From Aerophototrophica crusticola (lineage in GTDB: Bacteria; Pseudomonadota; Alphaproteobacteria; Azospirillales; Azospirillaceae), in contig MOEB01000007.1 in NCBI GenBank assembly GCA_001939945.1, positions 1 through 64,000 of the forward strand: 64,000 nucleotides of DNA, written 5' to 3'. The notes under the pieces are model-generated. The model made no database searches and was not told the origin of the DNA. It saw nothing but the letters and a program-made list of their open reading frames with translations. Below are positions 18,949-53,002 of the stretch, piece by piece. The translations under genes and the position numbers were made by a program. How positions within the stretch are numbered: the stretch's first letter is position 1; each line of letters opens with the position of its first letter.

Positions 18949-21162
18949 TCAGATCCCTACTTTAATCCTTAGAAACTTCTGAAAGCACCCTGCAAGTGGC
19001 GGTAGTGTCCCATGGAAATGCAGCACTTCGCGAATGTCATTCTTGGCCAACTTCAATCGACTTGCACAAATAGCCAGTAAAAACTCCGATGCTGCTTCAC
19101 CGAGTTCATTATCCGCGTTCTCCAGTATGCGGATGACGAAAGATCGAAGCAAGAAGCTCAATTCACTGTTCTGGGTATAATCTAATTCCTCCGGAAAAGC
19201 TCCCCGCAGGAAAGCAGCTTGTATAATGCCATCGTTATATCTTCCAAAGCATTCCGGAGCCAAAAGAGTTTGATGAAATGCACCAGAGGTTAATTTGGCT
19301 TTATCGCCCGTTCTAATGCCATCCAACACACAAGCGACAGTCACGTATACGTCTTCTTGGGAAGTGTCTGATACAGCATTGTTCTTATCCCAGAATGCGA
19401 ATGTCTCGCGAAGTCGCAGTGGGTCACCAGTGGGGCCTTTCAGGAAAAGGGTGTTAAGCTTCACTAAACCGCCAGATCGCAGTTCATCAAGCCGCTCATC
19501 AACCGCTTTACGCTCATCAGCGGACAAGAATTTTTCGCTACTTTCGTCATCTATCCTTGTAATCTGGTGTAGACATTCCTTTTCCGTAGTCCACGCATTA
19601 GTGCCAGACCGGGAAGGAAACGTAAGTTTTTCAATGCTTTCCACAGTATGCTTTGGGAGTTTGTTGTTATATTCCAGATCACTGACGAGAGTTCTATAGC
19701 GAGGCTCATGTGTGTGTTTGGCAAAATATGATAAATAGACTCTGGGCTGGTTCTTAATCTTATCCCTCAACTCAAGGCTTGCACTCTGCAAAGACACCCC
19801 TGTGTCAATGACGGAGGAGATAACCAAAACTGAAGATTTTTCCCGGATCGCGCAAACACCTAAATCTCTATGGTAAATTAAGGGTATATCGCGGCCCAGC
19901 CATTCAGCGATAGCTTTTTGTGCGATTTCTGCCAAGGTTTTCGAATCTTCTGTGTCTACATAAATGATTGCGGCCGCGTTCACTGGCGTGTATCTCAATA
20001 GTCTTTCCAAAAATAGGGAGTGCAGCTCAGCATCCTGCGCCAATATTCTTACATCGATGAACAAGTCACCTGCAAGATGACGTGAGTCGGGTGGGAATTT
20101 GACGCGAAAAAAACCCTTGCCGGCATAGCGGCTCATCAAATTTCGTAGAGCTACTGGTGAGTCCTCAGCCTTCACGACATAGCTGGAAATGTTATTGCTG
20201 TCGGTGAGGAATTGCTCTCCAGCAAAATGCACGGCGCGGGATCCCTCCTTGCAATACGGACATGTTTCTGCGTCATAATCTGTAGTTCCAGAAAACATTC
20301 CATTTGGGTTGAGATTTTGATCATCAAAAAAATCAAAAATCGTGTTGCACCCCGAAGCCTTAGGTGCGAAGGAGATTAAATTCATCACGTACTTTCGTTC
20401 AATGCCCATGCTTATGATCTTTTTGTACATGTTTCCGCTAGTAGTCGCAGAGATAAGTATCAGATAGTTATCAGTGCCAGGTGTTTTAATTCTTTCCAAA
20501 TTTCCATAAGAAGAGAAGCTTTCAATTGTAGGGAAATATCCGCGATCACCCGTCATGGACAGCTTAAGGGCCAATGCTGCTTTCACCACAATACCTATTG
20601 TCGATGAGTCAATGAAAATATGATCAGGTTTTTTCTCAAGAGCTGGCAGAAGAGCTAATGAAAGGAGGGTTAATTCTGTGCCCATCTGCATCAAGTTAGC
20701 AACACGAATGAAGGCTTTAGAATGCCGGCCGGACGGATGTACAAAATGATAAGTTCCCTTGGGTTGAATTAAGCCTTCTCGAACTTGAAAGATTTTTTTG
20801 GCTCCCGAATAAATCAAATTGCCAAAATCCGTTTGCTTAATAGTTAATTTCATGGCTGTTAAATTAATAACTCGCCCCATTGAGCCATTGCTATGAAAGG
20901 ACAGGAGCACAACAGGCATTTTGGTCGGGTCAGATCGCCATTTGGCCACTTTCTTAAGCATCTCATTAACAATGGCTCTAATCGAGTCCACTGCGTCGTC
21001 ACGCACTAGAAAAATTAGGGCTTGCGGACGTAGGTTGGTGGTAACGTCTGTATCCATAGAAAAAAAGAAGCTGCTTTCATTCAATGATAAGGAGGGTATA
21101 AAGTAGACTGCAACGCTCTTGTTCTGACCTTCGCTGAGGAGTTTGGCTCTGAAATTGAACAT
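18949..21162 (-). CDS. 737-aa protein with tandem degenerate phosphoribosyltransferase-like motifs and a CxxC knuckle
   Basis: Not a family I can name. It has two phosphoribosyltransferase-like halves by motif. In the first, FIDSSTIGIVVKAALAL (about residues 184-200) resembles a pyrophosphate loop, and LILISATTSGNMYKKI (about 230-245) a PRPP loop in which the usual acidic pair is replaced by Ser-Ala. In the second, VLVISSVIDTGVSLQSA (about 447-463) again has the TG-(S/T)-L pattern with Ser-Ser for Asp-Asp. A CPYCKEG half-knuckle is at about residue 300. The C-terminal 200 residues are helical. The gene is markedly AT-richer than the core. It lies 29 bp downstream of the GHKL ATPase gene, so the two form an operon trailing gyrB. 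The family assignment is inference from motif shape; biological role unknown, conflict/defence plausible. Confidence 0.7.
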   Translation of the reverse strand: MFNFRAKLLSEGQNKSVAVYFIPSLSLNESSFFFSMDTDVTTNLRPQALIFLVRDDAVDSIRAIVNEMLKKVAKWRSDPTKMPVVLLSFHSNGSMGRVINLTAMKLTIKQTDFGNLIYSGAKKIFQVREGLIQPKGTYHFVHPSGRHSKAFIRVANLMQMGTELTLLSLALLPALEKKPDHIFIDSSTIGIVVKAALALKLSMTGDRGYFPTIESFSSYGNLERIKTPGTDNYLILISATTSGNMYKKIISMGIERKYVMNLISFAPKASGCNTIFDFFDDQNLNPNGMFSGTTDYDAETCPYCKEGSRAVHFAGEQFLTDSNNISSYVVKAEDSPVALRNLMSRYAGKGFFRVKFPPDSRHLAGDLFIDVRILAQDAELHSLFLERLLRYTPVNAAAIIYVDTEDSKTLAEIAQKAIAEWLGRDIPLIYHRDLGVCAIREKSSVLVISSVIDTGVSLQSASLELRDKIKNQPRVYLSYFAKHTHEPRYRTLVSDLEYNNKLPKHTVESIEKLTFPSRSGTNAWTTEKECLHQITRIDDESSEKFLSADERKAVDERLDELRSGGLVKLNTLFLKGPTGDPLRLRETFAFWDKNNAVSDTSQEDVYVTVACVLDGIRTGDKAKLTSGAFHQTLLAPECFGRYNDGIIQAAFLRGAFPEELDYTQNSELSFLLRSFVIRILENADNELGEAASEFLLAICASRLKLAKNDIREVLHFHGTLPPLAGCFQKFLRIKVGI

Positions 21163-21191
21163 TGGACTGCTTCCCGTGGTTTACAATTTTG

Positions 21192-25021
<3,830 letters not shown>

Positions 25022-30871: not shown

Positions 30872-31123
30872 TGAGTACCCTCCAATACCGGGTCATACAG
30901 TTGCCGATCGAAGTACCTCATATTTACGGAGTTTGGCTGAGACGCAAGGTGGATTCTTGGGTTGGTCCGAGTTCTGTACCTAAGGTATAGGAAGATCGGC
31001 GGAGGTTGATCCTTAAAATTGTCGCCGATTTTGTTTGAATTCTTGCCATTGCTGCATGCCAGTTGCAGACGTCCTGATCCCCAGGAATAGGGCTGCTACC
31101 CCGCAGGTGCCGCCGCCGCCGCC

Positions 31124-31156
31124 GGGGCGTGTTTACGGTCAGCGTAAACACGCCCC
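31124..31156. terminator. Perfect 14-bp stem hairpin in the 30.9-31.2 kb gap
   Basis: GGGGCGTGTTTACG and CGTAAACACGCCCC pair perfectly around a GTCAG loop. No T-run follows, so it may be a regulatory palindrome or a replication-associated hairpin instead of a terminator. The surrounding 356-bp gap (30872-31227) is otherwise relatively AT-rich and holds no other element I can support. Confidence 0.5.
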
Positions 31157-31227: not shown

Positions 31228-31428
31228 ATGGCCGAGGAAGACATCGTGGGCCGCCTGCGCCGACGGGCAGCGAAGGCGAAGGACCGGTACCCGGAGCAAG
31301 CGGACGACCCCAACACCCTGGTGGGCGGCCTGATCCTGGATTACGAGGCCGCGGCCAACGAGATCGAGCGGCTGCGGGGGTCCCTGCATACCCTGTCCCG
31401 GGACGCGCTGCGGGCCATGCTGGGCTGA
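31228..31428 (+). CDS. Small acidic/basic helical hypothetical protein
   Basis: 66 aa, not recognised. It is predicted helical throughout (EDIVGRLRRRAAKAKDRY, GGLILDYEAAANEIERLRGSL), with a basic N-terminal third. Such short proteins with an AANEIERLR segment occur in phage and plasmid regions of proteobacteria. It ends 24 bp before the first iteron of the putative origin, which would make it an origin-linked gene. The start has no strong ribosome-binding site, so coding status is uncertain. Confidence 0.4.
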   Translation: MAEEDIVGRLRRRAAKAKDRYPEQADDPNTLVGGLILDYEAAANEIERLRGSLHTLSRDALRAMLG

Positions 31429-31452
31429 CCCTGTCAGGGTTCAGCGTGGTTC

Positions 31453-31560
31453 ATGTCGCCGCCATTCCGGGGCCGCGGGCGGGAATGGCGGCGACAGCGG
31501 CGGGAATCCCGATGACACCGACCGGAATCCCGGCGGCACCACCCGGAACGGCGGCGACAC
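31453..31560. repeat. Iteron array, left: one inverted copy plus four 21-bp tandem copies
   Basis: ATGTCGCCGCCATTCCGG (31453-31470) is followed by its inverse starting GGGAATGGCGGCGACA (31481-31496). Three more copies of the inverse unit follow in tandem: the GGAAT/GGAAC marks fall at 31482, 31503, 31524 and 31545, exactly 21 bp apart. Copies two and three are diverged in the middle (GGAATCCCGATGAC, GGAATCCCGGCGGC); the fourth reads GGAACGGCGGCGACA. The 21-bp period, two helical turns, is a hallmark of iterons bound by plasmid Rep proteins. Confidence 0.75.
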
Positions 31561-31561
31561 C

Positions 31562-31630
31562 GACTCGCACAGAGCCGTTCTGAATCAACTACTTGCGACT
31601 CATAGACTCTTGAGAGTCTGACTCAGAGTC
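31562..31630. promoter_or_regulatory. GANTC (CcrM-site) cluster in an AT-richer patch
   Basis: Seven GANTC sites lie in 69 bp (31562, 31582, 31597, 31605, 31614, 31620, 31626). Two more lie within the adjoining iterons (31504, 31525). GANTC is the recognition site of the alphaproteobacterial cell-cycle methyltransferase CcrM. At this base composition about one site per 350 bp is expected. The patch is the most AT-rich piece of the origin region and could double as an unwinding element. Confidence 0.65.
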
Positions 31631-31648
31631 AGGGAAAGACCGGGGGCC

Positions 31649-31657
31649 TGTGGACAA
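31649..31657 (-). promoter_or_regulatory. DnaA-box-like 9-mer
   Basis: TGTGGACAA, i.e. TTGTCCACA on the minus strand, differs by one base from the consensus TTATCCACA. It is adjacent to the GANTC cluster and iterons. A single near-match is weak evidence on its own. Confidence 0.4.
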
Positions 31658-31669
31658 GTCCGCCGGGCC

Positions 31670-32281
31670 TCATCCCACCAACAGCGGCACCAGCGAGGCC
31701 ACCAGCAACGCCGCCATGGCCAGGTTGAAGGCGCGCAGGCCGGCCGGCGTGCGCACCAGCGCCCCCACCCCCACGCCCACCAGGGTCCAGAGGGCCGTGG
31801 AAGCCAGGGCCGCGGCCAGGAAGATGGCCGCGATCAGCGCCGCCTGGAGCGCCAGGTCCGGCCCGGCGACCGTGTAGGTGGCCACGGCACCCAGCGCCAC
31901 CACCCAGGCCTTGGGGTTCACCCACTGGAACAGGGCGGCCTGGGTGAAGGACAGCGGACGTGACCCCGCCTCCCCCTCCGGCGGCGTCGGCTTGGCGGTG
32001 GCGATACGCCAGGCAAGCCAGAGCAGGTAGGCGGCGCCGACCCAGCGCAGGGCGCCATGGGCCCAGGGCAGGGCGCGGAACAGCTCCCCCGCGCCGAAGG
32101 CCACGGCCACCATCATGGCCGGGAAACCCACGGAAATGCCCAGCATGTGCGGGATGGTGCGGCGGAAGCCGAACGTGGCCCCGGACGCCGCCACCATGGC
32201 GTTGTTGGGGCCGGGGGTGGCGGACATGGACAGGGCGAAGCCGGCGACGGACACCAGCCAGGCAAGCTCTCCCACCTGCAT
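31670..32281 (-). CDS. LysE family exporter
   Basis: 203 aa from the ATG at 32281; an upstream in-frame start would add 32 residues of unlike composition. There are six hydrophobic segments, with the family motif SMSATPGPNNAMVAASGATFGFRR near the N-terminus and QWVNPKAWVVALGA at about residue 122. These inner-membrane proteins export amino acids such as homoserine, threonine or lysine; the substrate is not readable. The gene is flanked on both sides by iteron arrays, an odd place for a metabolic exporter; it may be a later insertion into the origin region. Confidence 0.85.
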   Translation of the reverse strand: MQVGELAWLVSVAGFALSMSATPGPNNAMVAASGATFGFRRTIPHMLGISVGFPAMMVAVAFGAGELFRALPWAHGALRWVGAAYLLWLAWRIATAKPTPPEGEAGSRPLSFTQAALFQWVNPKAWVVALGAVATYTVAGPDLALQAALIAAIFLAAALASTALWTLVGVGVGALVRTPAGLRAFNLAMAALLVASLVPLLVG

Positions 32282-32453
32282 CCCCACCCCCTGTGGCCGC
32301 CCCGGGACCAGCCGGGGGCCGGGCGGCAAGCCCCCAAGGTTCTTCAGGGTACCGGGATGGTTCGGCGCGGCAACCATCCGGGCTGCCCGCCAGGGGCATG
32401 GCTGGCATGGCCGGGGCGATTTCCCTTGCCTGCCATATTGGGGCCACCGGGTG

Positions 32454-32660
32454 GTGTCGCTGCGATTCCGGGCGAGTCGAGCGGAGTCGGCGGGGGTTCG
32501 GGGCAGCAGGATTCCGCTTCATGTCGCCGCCATTCCGGGGAGTCCGGCCTGACTCCAACGGGTTGGGCGGGTGGGGTCCGGCCCGCGGGCGGTGGTGGGC
32601 GTGATGTCGCCGCCCCTCCCGGTCATGTCGCCGCGATTCCCCTGGAGTCCGAGCGATTCC
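32454..32660. repeat. Iteron array, middle, with phased GANTC sites
   Basis: Copies: GTGTCGCTGCGATTCCGG (32454), ATGTCGCCGCCATTCCGG (32521), ATGTCGCCGCCCCTCCC (32604), ATGTCGCCGCGATTCC (32625), and a diverged copy ending GCGATTCC (32646). The last three are 21 bp apart, and a diverged ATTCC mark at 32511 is 21 bp before the one at 32532. GANTC sites at 32464/32474/32484 and 32635/32645/32655 are spaced exactly 10 bp, and 32540/32551 are 11 bp apart. There is no convincing ORF in 32282-32791. Confidence 0.7.
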
Positions 32661-32729
32661 AGGGGGCTGGAGCATATGTTGGGCTCTTGTCGCGCCTCCA
32701 CCCCCAATATTTGGGAGGGCGAATCATTG

Positions 32730-32833
32730 CTGTCGCCGCCGTTCCGCCCCTACCCTGCCGTCCGGATCACGGTTGCGGGAATGGCGGCGACATGACGGGC
32801 GAGGCGGGCATGGACGGGAATGGCGGCGACATG
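32730..32833. repeat. Iterons overlapping the start of the initiator gene
   Basis: CTGTCGCCGCCGTTCCGC (32730-32747) is followed by two inverse copies GGGAATGGCGGCGACATG at 32777-32794 and 32816-32833, 39 bp apart. The two inverse copies contain, or overlap, candidate start codons of the Rep-like gene, the arrangement expected for an initiator that represses its own expression. Confidence 0.7.
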
Positions 32834-33805
32834 GAAGCGCTGGAGCCCCAGCTTTCCGAGGCGGAGCTGAAGCGGCTGGAGCGGTTCAAGAACCGGCGCG
32901 GCCGGCGCAAGCCGTCGGTCATGCCCACCGACCTGGCCCGCACCTCCGCCTTTGCCCCGCGGCGGCGCAACCTGAACACGGACGCCAATTTCAGCCGGGT
33001 CTATTCCCTGACCTACCACAGCGTGGTGGAGGTGAAGGGGCGGGAGCTGGGCAGCCAGCACCGGGACGTGATCTATGCCCTGTTCCGCATGCGGGCGGTG
33101 GAGCGGCGGGTGCCCAACCCCAACCACAACCCCAACATCCGCACCATCGGCGTGGCAGAGAAGCCGTACCTGACCCTGTTCCAGGTGGAGACCACCTGGC
33201 GCGACCTGTTGCGGATCATGAACCGCACGGAGCATGTGAACAACCTGGGCACCGTCCTGGAGAGTTTGGAGCAGATCCGCTCCGTCTCCATCCGCGTCTA
33301 CCAGGGCGGGCCGGACGCCTTTGAGAAGGCGCTGGCCACCGGCCGCATCCCCAAGGGGCGTGGCTTTTCCGACAGCCTGCTGGGCAAGATCAGCTGGGAC
33401 GGGCCCAAGCTGGATGACCGGGTCATCGTCGAGTATGGCGAGTGGGTGCGCCGCGTGTTCGAGCTGCGCCACCTGGTCAGCCTGAACGCCGACGTCTATT
33501 TCGCCCTGAAGTCCGATTACGCCAAGACCTTCTGGCCCTATATCGACAGCCAACCCGGCCATACCTGGATCGACGAGGAGATGCTGGGCGAGCTGTCCGG
33601 CCGCAAGATCAAGGAGGAGGCGCCCACCAAGCGCCGCGCCTTCAAGCAGGACTGCCGCCAGGCCTTCGACGACATGGTGCGGGCCGGCGGGCTGAAGCGC
33701 TGGTGGGTGGAGGAGCAGCGGCGGGGCCGCTTCGTGTCGCTGCGGTTCCATTACGAGCACGCCCTGCCGCGGCAAGGGGAACTGGCCCTGGCCGCGGCGG
33801 AATGA
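32792..33805 (+). CDS. Plasmid-type replication initiator-like protein
   Basis: 337 aa from the ATG at 32792; ATGs at 32810 and 32831 are alternatives, and the first 14 residues are encoded by iteron sequence. The call is inferred, not a firm family match. The N-terminus is very basic (KRLERFKNRRGRRKPS). A first winged-helix-like unit spans about residues 65-150 (ELGSQHRDVIYALFRMR, TTWRDLLRIM), and a second about 225-310 (HLVSLNADVYFALKSDYA, WIDEEMLGELSGRKI). This two-winged-helix plan and the surrounding iterons resemble iteron-binding Rep/TrfA-like proteins. It has no ATPase motif, so it is not DnaA-like. It should bind the TGTCGCCGCC repeats and open the origin with host DnaA. Confidence 0.6.
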   Translation: MTGEAGMDGNGGDMEALEPQLSEAELKRLERFKNRRGRRKPSVMPTDLARTSAFAPRRRNLNTDANFSRVYSLTYHSVVEVKGRELGSQHRDVIYALFRMRAVERRVPNPNHNPNIRTIGVAEKPYLTLFQVETTWRDLLRIMNRTEHVNNLGTVLESLEQIRSVSIRVYQGGPDAFEKALATGRIPKGRGFSDSLLGKISWDGPKLDDRVIVEYGEWVRRVFELRHLVSLNADVYFALKSDYAKTFWPYIDSQPGHTWIDEEMLGELSGRKIKEEAPTKRRAFKQDCRQAFDDMVRAGGLKRWWVEEQRRGRFVSLRFHYEHALPRQGELALAAAE

Positions 33806-33811
33806 GGGCGC

Positions 33812-33847
33812 CATGTCGCCGCCCTTCCGGGAATCGCGGCGACATGG
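33812..33847. repeat. Inverted iteron pair directly after the initiator gene
   Basis: CCATGTCGCCGC (33812-33823) and GCGGCGACATGG (33836-33847) are perfect inverse copies, with the CTTCCGG/GGGAATC halves of two iterons between them. The pair begins 6 bp after the initiator stop codon. A GANTC site is inside (33831) and another at 33866. Confidence 0.7.
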
Positions 33848-33961
33848 CCGGGGCAGCGTATCTGGGATTCGGCGCCATGACGGTCGGAGGTCACAGCGAT
33901 GCAACCGTAAGGCTGATTGCTGATATTCCGGGCTGCGCGCTATGGTTAGCGCCCGTGCCAC

Positions 33962-44504: not shown

Positions 44505-46685
44505 ATGACCAGCGCCGACGCCCTGCCTCCGCCCGGGCGCATGGTCCGGGTTGCCCGGGCTGCCCGCCAGCATGACGGGGCCGAGATGGTGGAGCCGCGG
44601 GAGCTGGCGGCGGCGCGCTTCGTGGCCGGCCAGTCCCCGTCCCTCGCCGCCCGCCGCCTGTTGCTGCTGATGGTGGTGGCCGCGGCGGAGGCCGGCTTCG
44701 CCGCCCAGCGGCACCGCTTGGCCAAGGGCGACTGTCCCTGTCGCGGCTGAAGACCAAGGGGGAGCGGAAGGAGTATGAACGGCGGGCCGACAGCCACCGC
44801 GCCACCTTGGCGCGCTGGCTGCGGGACAACCTGGAAGCCGCATTGTCGGCACGGCTGAATGGGCGCGATGTGGCACTGTCCGCCCTGGCCGCCGACGCCA
44901 GGCTGAAGCCGTCGGAGCGGCGGGACCCCATGTCCCTGCTGGACTTGGCCATGGGCCACCTGCTGGCCACCGCCTTGGAGGACAAGTACCCCCACTACCC
45001 GCGCTTCGCCGTGCGGGTGGGGGAAGAGGAGCGGCAGCCCTTCTGCGACGACGCGCTGCGCCTGCTGGCGGGCATGGACCGCTCCCGCCAGGGCCTTGCC
45101 GTGCTGGAGGTCTTGCGCCTGCGGGAGGGGGAAGGCATCCGCACCCGCAGCTCCCCTTATGCCAAGGCCATCCTGGAGCAGCGGGGCGAGGGCCAGGTGG
45201 TGAACCGGGCCGATTTGGTTCGCGGCACCGACCCGGTGCTGTGGGAGCCGTTCCGGCTGGAGCCGGAGTACCTGTCCGTGTCCGTCGTCGCCCTGGTCCA
45301 CCAGGGCGACGCGGCGCTGCGCATTGATGGGGTGGAGTATGACGCCACCCGGCTGCGCCAGCTGGCCGGGCTATGCAGCGCCCGGGTGGCCGGGTTCAGC
45401 GTGCTGCAACGCCCCAAGGGCATCCCGGAGGGCAAGCTGGCCACCGACCGCGGCTGGGAGGAGCTGGTCCCCGACCTGCGCGCCCAGGCGGAGCTGGCCA
45501 TCACAAACGCCCTGAACGCCAAGCGGGAGCTGCAAGGCGGGCTGCAGCTCTGGGGCCTGCCGCCGCTGACGGCGGGGGAGCAGGCGGCCTGGGCCACCAG
45601 GTGGAGCGGTGGAAGGAGTTCCTGGAGGCCCTGCGCGCCTATGACTGCCCGGCCAAGCTGCGCAGCCTGCGCTGGGACCTGGAGACCATCGCCAGCCATG
45701 CCCCCGGCCGGCACGCCGTGGCGCAGGTGGTCGCCCTCCGCGAGGCGGTGGAGCAATTATCCTCCCCCACCAACTACCTGATGCAGGCGGAGGGGGTGCT
45801 GCGTCCCGACGACCCGTTCCAGGCCAGCCTGGCCGCGGTGCGGGAGGAGGTGCGGGCCCTGTTCGCCGACCCCGCCCGCCGCACCGACCCCGCCGCCCAC
45901 GCGGGGCTGCACAAGTCGCTGGAGGCGGTGAAGCGCGACTATGTGGAGCATTACCGCCGCCTGCACGCCGCCGCCCGGCTGACCAGCGCGCAGGCGACGG
46001 AGCGGGACGCCCGGCTGAAGGGGGGCTGCGGCTCGACCTGGAGCGCCTGTCCGCCATCCCCATCCTGCCCACGGCCCGGCTGGCGGACTGCCACATGCTG
46101 GCGGCGCAGGAGCTGGAGCACACCGCCACCTGCCCCCATTGCCAGTTCCGCCCGGCCCAGGACGCCCTGTTCGGCCGCGACATGGCCCGGGCCCTGTCCA
46201 CCCTGGAGAACCGGCTGCACGGCTTGGGCGACACCTGGACCCAGTCCCTGCGGGCGGAGCTGGCGCGGCCCCAGGCGCAGGAGGGCCTGGCCCTGTTGTC
46301 GGCGGCGGAGCGCCGGATGGTGGAGGACTTCCTGGAGGACGGCGCCCTGCCGGAGCCGGTCGAGGACGACTTCGTCGCAGCCCTGCGCGCCGCCCTGCAA
46401 TCCTTGCGGCCGGTGACGCTGGAGGAAGCCTCCCTGCTGGCCGCCCTGCCTGGCGACGGCGCCCCCACCACCGTCAAGGACCTGCGCGACCGCTTCAACA
46501 CCGACCTGCGCACCCTGCTGGGCAGTCACACGGAGGCGGAGGTGCGCGTGACCTTCCAGGACGGGGCGAAGGGGTATGGGGACGGGGCGCCTACTCCCCC
46601 GCCTTGCCCCCCTTCCCCTCGCCGCGCAGCTTCACGGCGGTGTCCAGCATCTTGTCAAACATCTTCTCGAACGGGGCGGGGTTGA
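44505..46685 (+). pseudogene. DUF6079 family (PglY-like) gene remnant, truncated and frameshifted
   Basis: The C-terminal ~700 residues of a DUF6079 protein are spread over four successive reading frames. Frame 3 (to about 44730) has ELAAARFVAGQSPSLAARRL. Frame 2 (about 44733-45596) has LEDKYPHYPRFAVRV and GEGQVVNRADLV. Frame 1 (about 45597-46020) has KLRSLRWDLETIASH and HKSLEAVKRDYVEHYRRLH. Frame 3 again (from about 46024) has TCPHCQFRP and EVRVTFQDG. Shifts lie near 44725-44735, 45590-45600, and at a run of six G (46020-46025). The N-terminal AAA+ half with Walker A is missing. DUF6079/PglY ATPases belong to BREX-type and related anti-phage systems. Homopolymer sequencing error could account for one shift, hardly for the missing half. 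Confidence 0.75.
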
Positions 46686-47802
46686 GCTTCTCCCGTTCGA
46701 TCTCAATGGTGGACTCGCCTTTCTTCAAGCGTTGGTTTCGATCCACCTTCAGCAGTTCTTTGCCAGCGTCCACAAAGGCTTTGCCCTTTGGGTCGGCCGT
46801 GCTGGCAAGAAGAGCAACAAGACGCATATCGAGGTTTGTGATCTCGTTTTGAAAGTACTTTATCTCTGATAGGCTAGCTCTATATAGATTTAAGAAGAAG
46901 AATGCTATAATCTCGACCAAAAGTGCTACGCTTGATCTCGGTATAAAATAAATCCAGAATTTTGATCCAGACATTTCTGATTGATTGAAGTCTGATAAAC
47001 TGAATATTAGGATGCCGATTCCTAATGTGCTTATTGCAATTCCAATCAATAAGTTCACGTTCCCACGGCGTGTCAAGCTTTCTACTTCCGCTGCAAGGCG
47101 GTCTTTTGCTCTTTGCAATTCAAAATATAGGCTACGTAGAATAATACTGTGTAGCCCGGGAACATCGGACAACAGTGACTGAATAGGTTGGAGGACATCA
47201 GCAGACAAACCTTGATCATCCGTATTTTTACTTGATAATGCTGAATATTTGCCCAGATTATGCTCAATATTGTAATGATGTTCTCGTGAAGAAACATCTT
47301 TATTTTCGAATCGATCAGAAGAATCAGTTGTATTCATAAGAGAGCTATCTAATTTCTTTTCTGATCCATAACTTTTGTGGTCGTTAAGATAGAAAGCCAA
47401 CCTTCTGAATAAAAATATAAGGATAAGGAAAATATACCCGCTGCCTCCAGCAATCATCGCAAGCTCAACTATATTTTCGTATTGACTTCTATATGAATTA
47501 TCAATATACTCTACAAGAAAAAATCTGTGTATCGCCGCAATAATGAAAACCATTGCCGGAGCCCATGAGTATCCAAGAATGCTTCCCTCGGTTTCCGGGG
47601 CCAGGAAGTCTGTGTAGGTTTTATTTATATCTGATTTGATTGTTTTCATAAGCTTTCCTGATCTGCGCGACTTTTCATCGCGAAGTTTACGATCAGCAGC
47701 CATTTTACCTAATATGTCGAAATTTTCGTTTTGACCGAGACCAGCGTTATCGACGTGCGGCTTCTGCTGAACATCAAGCTGAGTGCTATCCAAGCCTGTC
47801 AT
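46591..47802 (-). CDS. AT-rich membrane protein with four transmembrane segments, unknown function
   Basis: 403 aa, not recognised. Hydrophobic helices lie at about residues 80-97 (APAMVFIIAAIHRFF), 115-137 (YIFLILIFLF), 255-275 (NLLIGIAISTLGIGILIF) and 290-312 (SSVALLVEIIAFFFLNLY). The regions between are Ser/Asp-rich and then coiled-coil-like (LQRAKDRLAAEVESL). The body of the gene is clearly AT-rich while the last 200 bp (46591-46800) are GC-rich, so the 3' end may be a fusion or read-through into host-like DNA. It overlaps the pseudogene upstream by about 95 bp, tail to tail. A membrane effector of a defence system is a possibility but cannot be shown. Confidence 0.6.
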   Translation of the reverse strand: MTGLDSTQLDVQQKPHVDNAGLGQNENFDILGKMAADRKLRDEKSRRSGKLMKTIKSDINKTYTDFLAPETEGSILGYSWAPAMVFIIAAIHRFFLVEYIDNSYRSQYENIVELAMIAGGSGYIFLILIFLFRRLAFYLNDHKSYGSEKKLDSSLMNTTDSSDRFENKDVSSREHHYNIEHNLGKYSALSSKNTDDQGLSADVLQPIQSLLSDVPGLHSIILRSLYFELQRAKDRLAAEVESLTRRGNVNLLIGIAISTLGIGILIFSLSDFNQSEMSGSKFWIYFIPRSSVALLVEIIAFFFLNLYRASLSEIKYFQNEITNLDMRLVALLASTADPKGKAFVDAGKELLKVDRNQRLKKGESTIEIEREKLNPAPFEKMFDKMLDTAVKLRGEGKGGKAGE

Positions 47803-47973
47803 TTTTTCCTCCGCACTAATGCCATAGTAACATCGCGCGCCATCATTCCGCCACCCCCCACGCCCCCCACCCCATCCCCCCGGCCCTATCGGCTATGGTC
47901 GCTGCCTTCCGGGAGTTGAGGGGTTGGGGTTGGTTGGGGGGGTGCCCGGGCGGCGGCGGGGGCCGGGGGGCCG

Positions 47974-48268
47974 GTGGAGTGTCTGGGGCGGCGGTTTCCG
48001 GATGAAGGGGCGCGGCGGGACTGGTACCTGGCGCGGCTGGCTGAGAAGCTGCGGGAGCCGGGGTTCCGCGACCAGCCGGGCTTTCCCCAGGCGGATGACG
48101 CGACCATCCTGCGCCTGTCGGACCCGCCCTGGTTCACCGCCTGCCCCAACCCGTTCCTGGGGGAGTTCGTGGCCCATGTGGGCCGGCCGCATGACCCGGA
48201 TGACGTGTACGATGCGCTGTCCTATGCCGACGACGTAGCGGAGGGCAAGACCGGCCTTAGCTATTCAG
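47974..48268 (+). pseudogene. N-terminal fragment of a DNA methylase gene (BREX-type companion of DUF6079)
   Basis: About 98 codons from GTG match the start of large adenine-specific DNA methylases: VECLGRRFPDEGARRDWYLARLAEKL, then ILRLSDPPWFTACPNPFL, where the DPPW/Y tetrad is the methyltransferase motif IV-like element of this family, and DDVAEGKTG. After GKTG the frame passes into AT-rich unrelated sequence and ends at 48300. Intact relatives are close to 900 aa and occur with DUF6079 genes, consistent with the pseudogene upstream. So this is a broken part of the same system. Confidence 0.7.
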
Positions 48269-48291
48269 GTGAGGAACTCGTGTTCATTATG

Positions 48292-48591
48292 CTACATTAA
48301 AATTTTAGGGTCAGGCTTCTCAGCTTGGTTGTTGGGCAAAAGGATGCTCAATTCATGCAATCCATAATATTCTTTGCGATTTGAAAAATCCTCTTTGACC
48401 GATTTGCTAAGCTCAAATTTGTATTCTGGGGTAACTGTCACGTAGCCCAGGTCAAAGAGCCGGTGAATATCTCGCTGCATAAGGAGCCCATTTGGTATCG
48501 AGTGTTCTCCACCTTCGGCGTAAGGGCGAATGTGGCCAGCCTTCAATGCTGAAAAGACCTTTTCTCCGGTTATTGCACATTTTCTATTGTT
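48292..48591 (-). pseudogene. HNH endonuclease, N-terminally truncated fragment
   Basis: About 99 codons are open, with no start upstream of 48591. The segment CAITGEKVFSALKAGHIRPYAEGG and NGLLMQRDIHRLFDLGYVTVTP is the C-terminal HNH module (GHIRPY...N...HRLFD) of a family of about 250-350 aa; the N-terminal two thirds are absent. It is AT-rich and on the opposite strand to the methylase pieces on both sides, so it entered that gene and then decayed, or it was left behind by recombination. Confidence 0.7.
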
Positions 48592-48598
48592 TCAGGCT

Positions 48599-49338
48599 GT
48601 CGTCATAACGCAATCGATGCGATTGGATTCTGAAAGAATTCACCAGGAGCTGGAGCGGGAACCCCGCAGCATCGAGGACCTGTACAACCCCTACAAGGAC
48701 GCCGCCCAGACCTGGCCCGCGAAGGAGCAGGACATCGAGCTGAAGGACCTGCTGCGCTACAACTTCCTGCAATACCAAGGCGACCGGCCGGTGCCGGAGA
48801 AGCTGCTGCGCCTGTTGCGCCAGTCCCGCCACGCCTTCCTGAACATGCAGCCGGACGACCCGATGACCAAGCGGCTGGCCAGCGGCGTCTGGTACGTGCC
48901 CGAACCCGCCGACCAGGCGGAGATGGAGCGCCAGCGGGAAGAGCATATGTGGGGCGAGTTCCAGCAATACCGCGGCGGCGGCAAGAAGCGCTTCGCCAAG
49001 GCCCGACCGAAGGCGGTGCGCATCGGCTTCGGCCGGCTGTTGGACCAGGGCAAGGAGGAAGAGCTGCTGGCCCTGCTGCAACGGGAGTGGGAGCCGTTCC
49101 TGTACCGCCAGCTCTCCCCCACGCAAGGCGGCTGGGCGGAAGGGCTGGTGCCGTTCGACGCGCCGGAGGTCCGGCCGCTGCTGGACAACCTTTTCGCCGA
49201 CGGGCTGCTGCGCCCCTCCACCGCCGTGCCCCTGCGCCGGGTGGCGGGGACTTGGCTGGCCGCGGGGGTGGTGGACGGCACCGCGTCCCGCGACCACGCG
49301 GTGGCAGCCCGGGGTTGTTCCCGTTCCTGGAGGCGTAG
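48599..49338 (+). pseudogene. Probable C-terminal fragment of the DNA methylase gene
   Basis: The frame is open from before 48600 and becomes GC-rich at about 48635. LYNPYKDAAQTWPAKEQDIELKDLLRYNFLQYQG and WGEFQQYRGGGKKRFAKARPKAVRIGFGRLLDQGKEEELLALLQREWEPF resemble the C-terminal region of the same large methylases. Toward 49300 a neighbouring frame gives GLFPFLEA and a TAG, so there is probably one more frameshift near the end. The catalytic centre is missing. Assignment to the methylase is by resemblance plus position beyond the HNH insert; it could be a separate remnant. Confidence 0.5.
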
Positions 49339-49411
49339 CCGGAGGAGTGTTGGCCCTTACGAGATGGAAAAGGGTGCGGCGGCCCAGGCTTGGGGCCGCC
49401 GCTGCCTCGGG

Positions 49412-52400
49412 TCATGGCTTTGCGGTTTGCTTTTTGAACACGTCCCAGGTGAGGCGCGGGACCTGTGCTGCCAACTCTGAATAGAATTGGTGCCGGGCCC
49501 AGTGCCCGTGGTTACCGATCACATACAAGCGCTGCTTTGCCCGGGTGACCGCGACGTTCAGGATGTTCGGCCGGCGCCCGGCATAGGTTGTGATGGCCCC
49601 AGGCCGGCTGGGATTGCCACCGAGCAGCAGGACCACCGCATCCGCTTCCTTTCCTTGGAAGGTGTGGACGGTGCCGCAAATCTGGCGTGCGACCTGCCAG
49701 TTGAAAGCGCCGGCGATCAGCTTGCGCATTTCATCCGCGACACGCCGGAAGGGCGATATCACATACACGTTCGCCTTTCCGTCATCCCGGATCAGCCCGC
49801 CTTCCTGCTTGGCGATGGCGCGCAGCAATTCCAAGGCCCGTGCGCCTTCGTCGGGAAGCCAGTGCCCGTCATTGCTGGCCCCGACCACGTCGATCCAGCA
49901 GCTCGCCCCTAGCCATGGCTTGGTATCCTTGCCCATGGTCCCGTAGACCATCAGGCCCTTGTAGGCGATGGTGTTGGCGATGTCGAACATCGGGCGGAAG
50001 CACCGGCGATGGACCCGCAAGGGGGAGCCGACCCAGATCCGGCCCCCGTCCTCGTTACCGTCCTCGTTACCGTCGTCGGGTGTCTCGTCCTGCTTGATCC
50101 AGGTCCCCAGGGGATTGGCCCGGTCCGCCAAGACCTGCACGGAGTGGAGGGACGGGTCCCAGGCCTCGGTCACCCCCAGGGTCCGCCCCAGCGCCGAGAT
50201 GGCGCGCTTCGGTACCGTCATCACAGGCTCCACCTGGAGAGGATCGCCGACGATCACCGCGCGGCGGGCACGCCACAGGGCCCCGGCGGCGAGCTGCGGC
50301 GTTGCCTGCCCTGCCTCATCGACAAGGACCCACCCGATGCTCTCCCGCCCCAGCCCGGGGAAAAGTCGGCCGAACGACGCGAAGGTCGTGGACACGACGG
50401 GAACCGAGAGGAAGAAGGTATTCCAGAGGGTCGCCCCGCCATCATGCAGCCGACTGTGGTGCATGCTTCCCTGCAGCAGCTCCACGAAGACGCGCATGTT
50501 GGCCGCAAACCGCTTCTGTGCCCCGGCCAGGAAGGCGCGATGCAGGTCGAGGGCGGCAAGGAACAGCTCTGCCCTGGCCTCCCGTGCCGTTTCATCATCC
50601 CAAGGCGCCCAGAGCTGGAGCTCGTCCACTGGCGCATGGAATTTGCGCCATCTACCTAGGGCTTCCAGCGTGGTCCCGTTTCGGGTGATCTCGCCCAAGC
50701 TGGCCGCCATGATCGCTTGATTGCCCACGATCGCCCGTTCCAGGGCGCCAAGCTTCACCTGGGCACCCGCGCAGGCCTGTTCCGCTGCTGTCATTGCCGC
50801 ATGGGCGCGGCCGAACTCAGCCTCTGCGGTCGCCATCTGCTGCCTGACCCCTTCGGCCGCGGCGTCTTGGGCCACGCCAAGGTCACGCAGCCGGCCTAGG
50901 GCGGCGTTCAACTCCGTCGATGCCTTCACCCATCGCTTATGCCAGCTTTCCGCTTGCTCAAGCTGGGCAACGATCCCCCTCAGCCGGTTCTCCGCGGCGT
51001 CCAGGGCCGTCCTGGCCTGCTCGACCTTTGCCGCCTTCTCGGACTTCTCCCTCTCCCATTCTCTCAATGCCTTGCCCAAACTCAGGAGGTTCCGCAGGCC
51101 GCCAGGCCGCAAAGCCAGATGGTTCTCATAGTCCCTTCTGGCGTCGTCATATGCCCGCTGGGCCTGCCTCACGCCAAGTTCGGCATCATTCTTTTCCCGC
51201 TTCTTCTTTTCCACGTCCAGGGTGGGCCGGGACTTGTCAAGTTTCTGGAGCTTCTGCTGCAGGGTGTCCCGTTCGACCAGTGCCTTATGGGCGTTCGAGA
51301 GCGATTGGAAGGCGGCCTGTCGCAGGTCGCGCTGCTGCCTTGCCGCGGCCAACGTTTCCGAGAGACGGGTCACCTCCCGTCGGGCATCCGGTAGGCCCGC
51401 CTCGGCCTTATCGGACTCGACCTTGGCCTGGTCATGCCGCAACAGCGCCTGGGCAAGCTTTTGCACTCGGGCGAGGGCCTCTTTCGCCCGATCCAAGGCT
51501 GCCGAGAAGGCTTTACGCGCGTCATCCCAGCTTGGGCTACGCTCAGCCTCCTGCGCCAGCGCCGTCTGGATTGACACGGCGCCCGTGGCGTTAACCCTTC
51601 CCCTTTCCGGTTGCTGCGCGAACCAGAAGCGGCCAATGAAATCACTTCGGTTGGCCTTGTTCCCCAGCACGGCGCTGATCAAGCCCCAGGTCGCGCCGGG
51701 CGAGCGGCTGTTCCTCTCGGTGCAGGCAAGGGTGTCCGCGACGTCAGCGAAGTGCCTGTAGGACCCGTAGCCCTTCCCGAGGGCGGAGATGCCCGGCAGT
51801 TCCCGCGTGACGTTCTCGACTGCCGCGTTGTTGGCCGACGCCACGACGATCCCGAAGTCCATCAGACGTTCGTCAATCGCGTAATAAGGGTATTGCTGGC
51901 CCTCGATCCGGATCGATTTCGTGAAGGCTTTTTCCGGCGATCCGAACTCTGCCAGCACCAGCGCGCGTTGGACCACGATCTGGGCAACCACATCCCGGAG
52001 CAACGTCGTCTTGCCTGTCCCGGGCGGGCCGTTGATCGAGAAAATCCCCTCGTCGGCCAGGCGCTCGAAGATCGTGTTCACCCCGGCTTGCTGGGCAAAG
52101 GCCAAGGGGTGCTCGGACGCCCAGCGTCCCAAGGGGAACTTTTCGGGAGCGACCATGGCGAAGGCCGCGTTGCGGTCATTCGCCACGTCCTTCTTCGCCT
52201 CTCGCGTCCCGAACAGGTACGATTGGAACGCTACGCCGACGTCCCCCGCCCTCACCGCGTCCTGCACAAGTTTCAGGTCCGGCGCGATGAAGCTGTTCAG
52301 GATTTCGTCGTCGGAACGATCGCCATTGGCTTCGATTGAAACGGAAACTGTTTTGGCGCGCACCGGAACGGCGATCTGGGGGGAATACTCGGCCAGCCTC

Positions 52401-53002
52401 TCGACAAGTTCCCGTATCGCGGCGATGTCGTCGTGGGTTAAGGGGGTCTTGCAAACGGTATCCGCGTCCAGGCCGCAACCCTTTGCATAAGCCGGGGACA
52501 GCACTGCCCGTTCAACGACCAGTGCCCGCACGCGCGATACGGCTTGGGTACAGAAATCCTCAAACTCATCCGGATCGAGCGGCATCTGAGGTTGGTGCCT
52601 GATTTTCCCTGCCGCCCAGACAAGGCTGCTGATAGATATGTCTGACGCGATGCGACCTTCCGCATCGACGGTGAATGACAGCATGGCTGCTGGCTTGGAC
52701 GGCTGGAACTCCTCTTGTTCTTCGAGCAGACCCAAAGATTTACGCAAGTTTTCGACAACCCAAGACATATCCATCAAGCCGACGTACAGTATGGACTGCC
52801 AGACTTTCTTTTCGATATACGGTTGAGTTCGTATTTTTATTTGATCTTGCCATGGATACTCGCCATTCGCTTCTATAGTCCATACGCGATTTTTTGCATC
52901 CTCATCGGGAGCGGTTGCGGGTTGAAGATACTCGATTGACAACCAATACTTGATGATCTGCAACGCTGTTTGCACTCTGATCTCCGTTTGACGCTCGAAC
53001 AC
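49412..53002 (-). CDS. Large SF1 helicase/ATPase with coiled-coil insertion, candidate defence protein
   Basis: 1196 aa and apparently intact. Walker A is GPPGTGKTTL (Lys331); motif II is WVLVDEAGQATP (about residue 893); motif III GDPLQVEP; motif V/VI HTFQGKEADAV and NVAVTRAKQRLYVIG at the C-terminus. The order is that of UPF1/DNA2-like SF1 helicases. Between motifs I and II lies a long alpha-helical coiled coil (about residues 480-760). The N-terminal 320 residues are a domain I do not recognise. It could move on DNA or RNA. Next gene upstream encodes a PD-(D/E)XK-like protein, suggesting a two-gene system. No frameshifts, in contrast to the neighbouring remnants. Confidence 0.75.
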   Translation of the reverse strand: MFERQTEIRVQTALQIIKYWLSIEYLQPATAPDEDAKNRVWTIEANGEYPWQDQIKIRTQPYIEKKVWQSILYVGLMDMSWVVENLRKSLGLLEEQEEFQPSKPAAMLSFTVDAEGRIASDISISSLVWAAGKIRHQPQMPLDPDEFEDFCTQAVSRVRALVVERAVLSPAYAKGCGLDADTVCKTPLTHDDIAAIRELVERLAEYSPQIAVPVRAKTVSVSIEANGDRSDDEILNSFIAPDLKLVQDAVRAGDVGVAFQSYLFGTREAKKDVANDRNAAFAMVAPEKFPLGRWASEHPLAFAQQAGVNTIFERLADEGIFSINGPPGTGKTTLLRDVVAQIVVQRALVLAEFGSPEKAFTKSIRIEGQQYPYYAIDERLMDFGIVVASANNAAVENVTRELPGISALGKGYGSYRHFADVADTLACTERNSRSPGATWGLISAVLGNKANRSDFIGRFWFAQQPERGRVNATGAVSIQTALAQEAERSPSWDDARKAFSAALDRAKEALARVQKLAQALLRHDQAKVESDKAEAGLPDARREVTRLSETLAAARQQRDLRQAAFQSLSNAHKALVERDTLQQKLQKLDKSRPTLDVEKKKREKNDAELGVRQAQRAYDDARRDYENHLALRPGGLRNLLSLGKALREWEREKSEKAAKVEQARTALDAAENRLRGIVAQLEQAESWHKRWVKASTELNAALGRLRDLGVAQDAAAEGVRQQMATAEAEFGRAHAAMTAAEQACAGAQVKLGALERAIVGNQAIMAASLGEITRNGTTLEALGRWRKFHAPVDELQLWAPWDDETAREARAELFLAALDLHRAFLAGAQKRFAANMRVFVELLQGSMHHSRLHDGGATLWNTFFLSVPVVSTTFASFGRLFPGLGRESIGWVLVDEAGQATPQLAAGALWRARRAVIVGDPLQVEPVMTVPKRAISALGRTLGVTEAWDPSLHSVQVLADRANPLGTWIKQDETPDDGNEDGNEDGGRIWVGSPLRVHRRCFRPMFDIANTIAYKGLMVYGTMGKDTKPWLGASCWIDVVGASNDGHWLPDEGARALELLRAIAKQEGGLIRDDGKANVYVISPFRRVADEMRKLIAGAFNWQVARQICGTVHTFQGKEADAVVLLLGGNPSRPGAITTYAGRRPNILNVAVTRAKQRLYVIGNHGHWARHQFYSELAAQVPRLTWDVFKKQTAKP

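Follow-up and report, generated by a model that had tools for sequence, protein, structure and literature searches.

Among the closest described counterparts of the locus analysed here is ori2, the origin of Vibrio cholerae chromosome 2, at which an iteron array, a DnaA box and an AT-rich unwinding element lie beside the gene for the initiator RctB, according to the available passages of PMC6090056, in which repABC appears as the replication system of chromids in the same class of bacteria as the present organism, the Alphaproteobacteria. The coexistence of an oriC-type and a plasmid-type origin on one chromosome is described in the available part of PMC6284228 for V. cholerae NSCV1, in which the plasmid-type origin is active, and NSCV2, in which it is silent; whole chromosomes are fused in both, and the two origins of NSCV1 lie 1.83 Mb apart. 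The naturally dual-origin bacterial chromosomes presented in the abstracts covered are fusions of whole replicons. The present work concerns a stretch of 64,000 nucleotides from Aerophototrophica crusticola (contig MOEB01000007.1, positions 1 to 64,000), hereafter the window, in which rep, the gene for a proposed replication initiator, is surrounded by iterons in a module of about 2.4 kb that lies about 65 kb from the probable oriC. A reading made from the letters of the DNA (the sequence-only reading) had proposed an iteron origin with a plasmid-type initiator embedded among core genes, a proposal which is supported by the predicted fold of the protein, by plasmid relatives that lie beside parA and by a layout shared with those relatives. 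The most likely interpretation is that a plasmid replication module containing a predicted origin was captured by the main chromosome, and that the event was the capture of a module rather than a fusion of whole replicons. In its full form, which we regard as probable, this interpretation holds that the module is structurally complete (initiator gene plus oriV), that it derives from an unnamed alphaproteobacterial plasmid family and that it was captured near oriC without partition genes.

The resemblance of Rep to known initiators lies in fold alone. An AlphaFold model of the window protein, built from 49 aligned sequences, has a mean pLDDT of 77 and a pTM of 0.72, and a Foldseek comparison of this model with the PDB yields 251 matches at E up to 10, 23 of them at E<=0.001. 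Each of the 23 is an iteron-type initiator (RctB domains 2-3, RepE54 of F, Rep proteins with iteron or unwinding-element DNA, and Pi of R6K, some abbreviated PDB titles being taken as the RepE54 co-crystal series), so that the structure search proposed in the sequence-only reading came out in favour of a Rep- or RctB-type protein; the best match is RctB (5tbf, E 5.9e-8). A comparison with a viral library gives three matches at E<=0.001, the best of which is annotated as a plasmid replication initiator. The two winged-helix domains that mark the initiator of an iteron-type replicon are thus predicted for Rep, and this predicted fold, the direct iterons and the probable self-repression sites in the leader liken the module to RepE of F and Pi of R6K, from which it differs in its chromosomal location and in the absence of any PDB sequence match of Rep to an initiator. 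With phmmer the window protein finds nothing among PDB sequences, a 15-row profile finds a single integrase fragment (E 1.9), and neither method detects homology to the RctB chains; identity to RctB over the fold alignment is 10-12%, and Rep comprises 324 aa where RctB has about 650 residues. In Pfam and NCBIfam the window protein has no match at E up to 1. Fifteen members of the alignment, scanned singly, give no significant family either (best values 0.021 in Pfam and 0.096 in NCBIfam, with unrelated names), the Pfam matches of these members at E up to 1 being confined to four unrelated families, and in PHROGs window Rep has one insignificant profile only (E 0.33).

Relatives of Rep are found on plasmids and on other contigs. 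A tblastn search detects them in 19 plasmid records at 47-55% identity (Roseomonas 9, Methylorubrum 5, Methylobacterium 3, Skermanella 1, Aureimonas 1), where 18 of the matches are annotated as hypothetical protein and one has no feature beneath it, and full-length homology to this unnamed plasmid Rep family is seen at 47-57% identity to 14 members. A scan of genome contigs with the single Rep sequence found no relative, whereas the alignment-based profile scan found 51 further loci, mostly alphaproteobacterial, including one metagenome-assembled genome titled Cycloclasticus; together with the plasmids these belong to mostly other alphaproteobacteria. The family is uncommon: it occurs in 3 of 82 genomes of the window's own taxonomic family (the order-level search took in the same 82) and in 3 of 385 genomes sampled from the class with up to five candidates scored per genome, the window's own genome being included in both counts. 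In a quick tree of 63 rows, window Rep forms a long branch among mostly Acetobacteraceae and Roseomonas rows (SH-aLRT 94), although its exact place is unsure. A ParA-like gene lies within 5 kb of rep at 38 of 64 relative loci and not at the other 26, and among 13 plasmid loci inspected an annotated ParA stands beside rep in six and an AAA ATPase in one (Skermanella rosea pSR-4). In the viral collections no protein relative of Rep was found. No description of the family appears in the titles or abstract openings among the literature matches listed, in a coverage that mostly excludes subscription journals; the passages available of PMC2680597, on the Methylorubrum extorquens genome, name no initiator for p2META1, and a search of PMC12456017, on chromids, gave no instance of the word "iteron".

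Some loci of the family have features of their own. Five loci from Roseomonas and Pseudoroseomonas (L015, L016, L025, L030 and L031) have rep relatives without a ParA-like gene within 5 kb, and two of these, L015 and L016, deposited as linear plasmids of 441 and 320 kb, share most of their neighbours (ligD, MATE, oxidoreductase), which suggests a stable large replicon. Genes judged by eye to be scpA- and scpB-like lie upstream of the rep relative of the AM1 megaplasmid (L017, 4905-6316); L062 also has matches to both, and L058 and L060 to scpA only.

The iterons around rep are overrepresented compared to both expected and shuffled counts. The 15-mer TGTCGCCGCCATTCC, allowing up to 3 mismatches, has 20 matches in the window where 4.5 are expected, a number reached by 0 of 100 shuffles, and 15 of the 20 fall within 31454-33844. 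The same interval holds all five exact copies present in the whole assembly of 6,061,112 bases. At up to 2 mismatches the assembly has 52 places, 12 in the module and 40 scattered elsewhere, while the reversed pattern, used as a control, has 24 genome-wide; a dispersed repeat is accordingly ruled out for the exact copies, which are confined to the module, the places elsewhere with 1-2 mismatches numbering 40 against the 24 of the control. The sequence-only reading had described clustered repeats around the gene, 21-bp phasing of the left array, inverted repeat pairs, and a DnaA-box-like 9-mer with an AT-richer patch adjoining, and each of these observations stands. The units at 31482, 31503, 31524 and 31545 are spaced by exactly 21 bp, with 0, 4, 3 and 1 mismatches respectively; the second of them, read directly from the sequence, lies outside the set of matches with up to 3 mismatches. 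This four-unit array, the direct repeats of which are phased at about two helical turns as in iteron-type replicons, scores 28, whereas none of 40 base shuffles exceeds the maximum of 18. The inverted pairs are found at 31454/31482 and 33814/33830, the 9-mer is the DnaA box TTGTCCACA, and the adjoining patch at 31576-31625, with 56% A+T, is the only 50-bp step of at least 45% within 31401-32850, so that the DnaA box and AT-rich unwinding element which adjoin the iterons in replicons of this type are both present. As for the gene itself, the stop at 33805 given by the sequence-only reading is kept, but the start at ATG 32792 (337 aa) fits less well than ATG 32831, at about which the alignment of the relatives begins; with the latter start, two exact iterons fall in the rep leader. 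A promoter and terminator scan of 31400-33950 found none.

In six relatives that were read (L017, L026, L027, L033, L043 and L055) there is broadly one order of elements, consisting of a DnaA box, an AT-rich stretch with AGTCT-like repeats, at least 4 iterons at 21 bp, single iterons and rep, with the exceptions that the upstream DnaA box of L017 is on the opposite strand and that of L055 is farther off. A de novo motif search shows that many relatives have rep-side repeats of their own, often combining a variable GC-rich portion with an end that resembles TTCC. A four-unit array with 21- or 22-bp spacing that exceeds all 40 base shuffles is present at 59 of 65 loci, the window counted, though some of the top arrays are repeats of another kind, such as those near parA, and a few could be spurious; layout statistics were restricted to arrays 100-450 bp upstream of rep and facing it, which are found in 40 of 64 relatives and make 41 loci with the window added. 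At 23 of these 41 loci, the window counted, the array has a DnaA box no more than 260 bp away (three on the other strand), and 22 of the 23 boxes lie at 79-114 bp, a range that includes the 96 bp of the window. The 120-bp stretch beside the window array, compared with that of the 40 relatives, has a mean local score of 21.0, as against 14.6 +/- 0.4 (maximum 15.5) for 200 dinucleotide shuffles; its reverse complement scores 17.8, which is attributed to the partly palindromic nature of the repeat.

The same stretches are rich in GANTC, which is the site of CcrM. In the 130 bp beside the window array there are 7 such sites, compared to a mean of 0.48 and a maximum of 4 in 2000 shuffles, and beside the arrays of 40 distinct loci there are 75, against an expectation of 10.3 derived from the loci and of 19.4 derived from base shuffles, with a maximum of 33 among 300 shuffles. 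AGNCT, used as a control, is enriched to the same degree, however (85 against 13.2 expected); AGTCT may thus be the primary repeat and the excess of GANTC a consequence of it, and control by CcrM through GANTC is a lead only. The window differs from ori2 in these GANTC sites, which take the place of GATC, and in its 21-bp phased iterons with mostly a TTCC end. A separate family of repeats, with ACCGCATGCCG-like units, lies about 1.2 kb upstream of rep in the parA region of L012, L018, L024, L040 and L042; these arrays were not treated as rep iterons and are possibly a centromere.

The setting of the module is chromosomal. Its contig of 154,576 bp has chromosomal genes on both sides of the module and carries parB, parA, rsmG, mnmG and mnmE at 81.5-87.7 kb, four parS-like sites at 83.8-94.2 kb and a fifth at 139 kb (1-2 mismatches), and maf. 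At 97.5-99.9 kb, hemE and a Kinase-PPPase gene point away from each other on either side of three DnaA-box-like sites, at 98615, 98658 and 98692, with one mismatch each, and since such a pair, with its hemE-flanked DnaA-box region, is taken here to mark the usual oriC of alphaproteobacteria, this region is the probable native origin, from which the distance of the module follows. The gene dnaA is on another contig (C2), but a congener (G067) has a single 3.4-Mb contig on which dnaA lies together with the hemE region and the flank genes. The search for dnaA, parAB and a second origin suggested by the sequence-only reading located the first two and, in the hemE region, a probable origin, and of the two kinds of replicon which that reading had entertained, a chromosome carrying a plasmid-derived origin fits best, because parAB, the four parS-like sites and the hemE-type oriC region are on the contig; the chromid is rejected on the same grounds and on those of the G067 contig. 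The GC-skew check, also suggested there, is uninformative, because the skew is weak (21 of 31 5-kb bins positive) and has no switch even at the hemE region. The polarity of KOPS, the motif GGGNAGGG, changes sign several times along the contig, with a weaker origin-like change near 80 kb, and since neither measure switches at the hemE region, the native oriC is placed here by its genes and DnaA boxes. An AT-rich island at 117.1-118.3 kb (contig C296, L094), with a perfect DnaA box at 117494 and a one-mismatch box at 117515, adjoins an origin-like KOPS change and may be a foreign insert or else an alternative to the hemE region as the native origin. A chromosome fission marked by the module was also considered, its flanks being separated by about 790 kb in G067, but gene order is disrupted at further points nearby, and the idea was dropped for that reason.

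From the repeats, the predicted fold, the family, the layout and the setting, we infer how binding, melting, control and any activity would proceed. Rep, as a two-winged-helix protein, would bind the 21-bp iterons, and together with DnaA at its box would open the adjacent AGTCT-rich stretch, after which the replicative helicase would be loaded. Iterons in the rep leader and beyond the stop codon would allow Rep to repress its own gene, and pairing of arrays would restrain firing. The module would most likely still be capable of initiation but would normally yield to oriC.

Several observations weigh against this interpretation. The TM-scores of the fold matches are moderate and do not exceed 0.49 over the query or 0.68 over the target. 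By the method used, 24 of 64 relatives gave no array at the expected place, and 18 of the 41 loci lack a DnaA box. The elements of an iteron origin foreseen by the sequence-only reading are present in the window, but, as a correction to that reading, the core (DnaA box, unwinding stretch and four iterons) is on the minus strand and points away from rep, from which it is further separated by lysE, whereas the array faces rep in 53 of the 59 loci with an above-shuffle array; a past inversion between iterons would be a simple explanation, and the inversion and the separation may have left the origin crippled. Within about 5.8 kb of rep there is no ParA-like gene, so that the linkage of rep and parA, frequent but not universal in the family, is absent here, and this, the lack of a Pfam match for the initiator and the lack of a repA-repB-repC operon also distinguish the window from repABC. 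The GC skew has no switch at 33 kb, the origin-like change in KOPS is found near 118 kb and at neither 33 nor 98.7 kb, and the assembly is fragmented into 328 contigs.

One alternative is that the module is a dead or dormant remnant, in which an integrated plasmid has lost all but its replication module and the rearrangement that placed lysE between array and rep has disabled the origin; to this we give somewhat less than an even chance. The orientation of the array and the missing partition gene would be expected of a remnant, as would the absence of rep from 10 of 10 congeners, and lysE and a histidine kinase gene of the same stretch have no match beside the flank genes in congeners, among the matches listed. 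Against a remnant, rep is open and of full length and shares the 37 columns that do not vary among the 49 aligned rows, its own included; its third-position GC, at 0.926, is inside the range of nine other contig genes (0.858-0.945), and the module has retained five exact iterons, its DnaA box and the unwinding stretch.

With the elements of an origin present, it may instead be supposed that the second origin is active and that replication starts at both oriC and the module, for which NSCV1 is a natural precedent in the part of PMC6284228 available and which, at such a short distance from a hemE-type oriC, would disturb replication little; the skew without a switch at the module and the silence of the plasmid-type origin in NSCV2, reported in the same part of that source, make this rather unlikely. 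It is also conceivable, though improbable, that the locus excludes plasmids, in that chromosomal Rep and iterons would titrate, or pair with, the iterons of incoming relatives (incompatibility). At up to 2 mismatches, the 2.4 kb around rep contain 12 iteron-like sites, more than a single four-unit array, and the ori2-inc iterons of V. cholerae titrate their initiator, according to passages of PMC6090056, but a plasmid sharing these iterons was not found: of 35 plasmid records, the 20 listed match in rep or lysE coding sequence only; there is one exact 17-mer match in viral contigs. An assembly artefact, or a free plasmid or chromid misjoined to chromosomal DNA, is very improbable despite the fragmentation of the assembly and the synteny break with congeners at the module, because two wrong joins would be required in a 154.6-kb contig on which the module is flanked to left and right by chromosomal genes, parAB and the hemE-type oriC among them, and because gene order in the genus is broken at other nearby points as well.

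Capture of such a module by a main chromosome may have happened more than once. In Hyphomicrobium zavarzinii a Rep relative is encoded on an 862-kb contig (L061) beside an array with a score of 31 against a shuffle maximum of 17, with a DnaA box 106 bp from the array; its neighbours are a tRNA-Gln gene and genes for Ppx/GppA, an FtsJ-like methyltransferase and IMP dehydrogenase, and dnaA is found at one place in the genome (G462:C3). The locus looks like an independent capture, the replicon being a candidate main chromosome. A more far-reaching proposal, which we advance only tentatively, is that the window represents a main chromosome with a second, initiation-competent iteron origin at this short distance from oriC, governed by an uncharacterised family of RctB/RepE fold, the AGTCT/GANTC repeats of which may be tied to the CcrM cell-cycle clock, and captured at least twice, in the window and in H. 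zavarzinii.

The assignment of a likely function to this family, which is not named in the libraries searched, could have practical consequences. Plasmid proteins annotated as hypothetical gain a likely role as replication initiators, including one on p2META1 of M. extorquens AM1 (that of the AM1 megaplasmid is not in the gene table used), and the readable layout of the origin could be used to type these replicons and to build vectors. The module is also a natural system in which to ask how a chromosome tolerates or silences a second origin near oriC. The coordinates of its features are collected in Table 1.

Table 1. Features of the proposed replication module, in window coordinates.
Feature	Coordinates	Strand	Basis
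Iteron, exact copy, inverted relative to the adjoining array	31454..31468	+	TGTCGCCGCCATTCC pattern match
Core array, 4 iterons at 21 bp	31482..31559	-	Pattern match and shuffle-scored array
Proposed DNA unwinding element, AGTCT-type repeats and GANTC sites	31560..31648	-	GANTC enrichment; alignment to relatives
DnaA box TTGTCCACA, 96 bp from array	31649..31657	-	Motif scan
LysE-type exporter gene, between origin core and rep-side iterons	31670..32377	-	PF01810
5 single iterons (32455, 32522, 32605, 32626, 32731), upstream of rep	32455..32745	+	Pattern match
2 exact iterons (32778-32792, 32817-32831), rep leader, proposed self-repression operator	32778..32831	-	Pattern match; start-codon position read from sequence
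rep, proposed replication initiator, 324 aa (337 aa from ATG 32792)	32831..33805	+	Relatives, alignment, fold model
Inverted iteron pair directly 3' of rep stop codon	33814..33844	.	Pattern match

Elsewhere in the window, a palindromic REP-like repeat of about 45 bp lies at 31109-31153, with the core GTGTTTAC...GTAAACAC and many copies of 84-97% identity dispersed over the assembly. Two stretches have lower GC, 18949-22406 (0.565 in 5-kb bins) and 46591-53002 (0.616-0.635), the second of which encodes a 1196-aa protein with AAA_11/AAA_12 helicase domains and is possibly an island.

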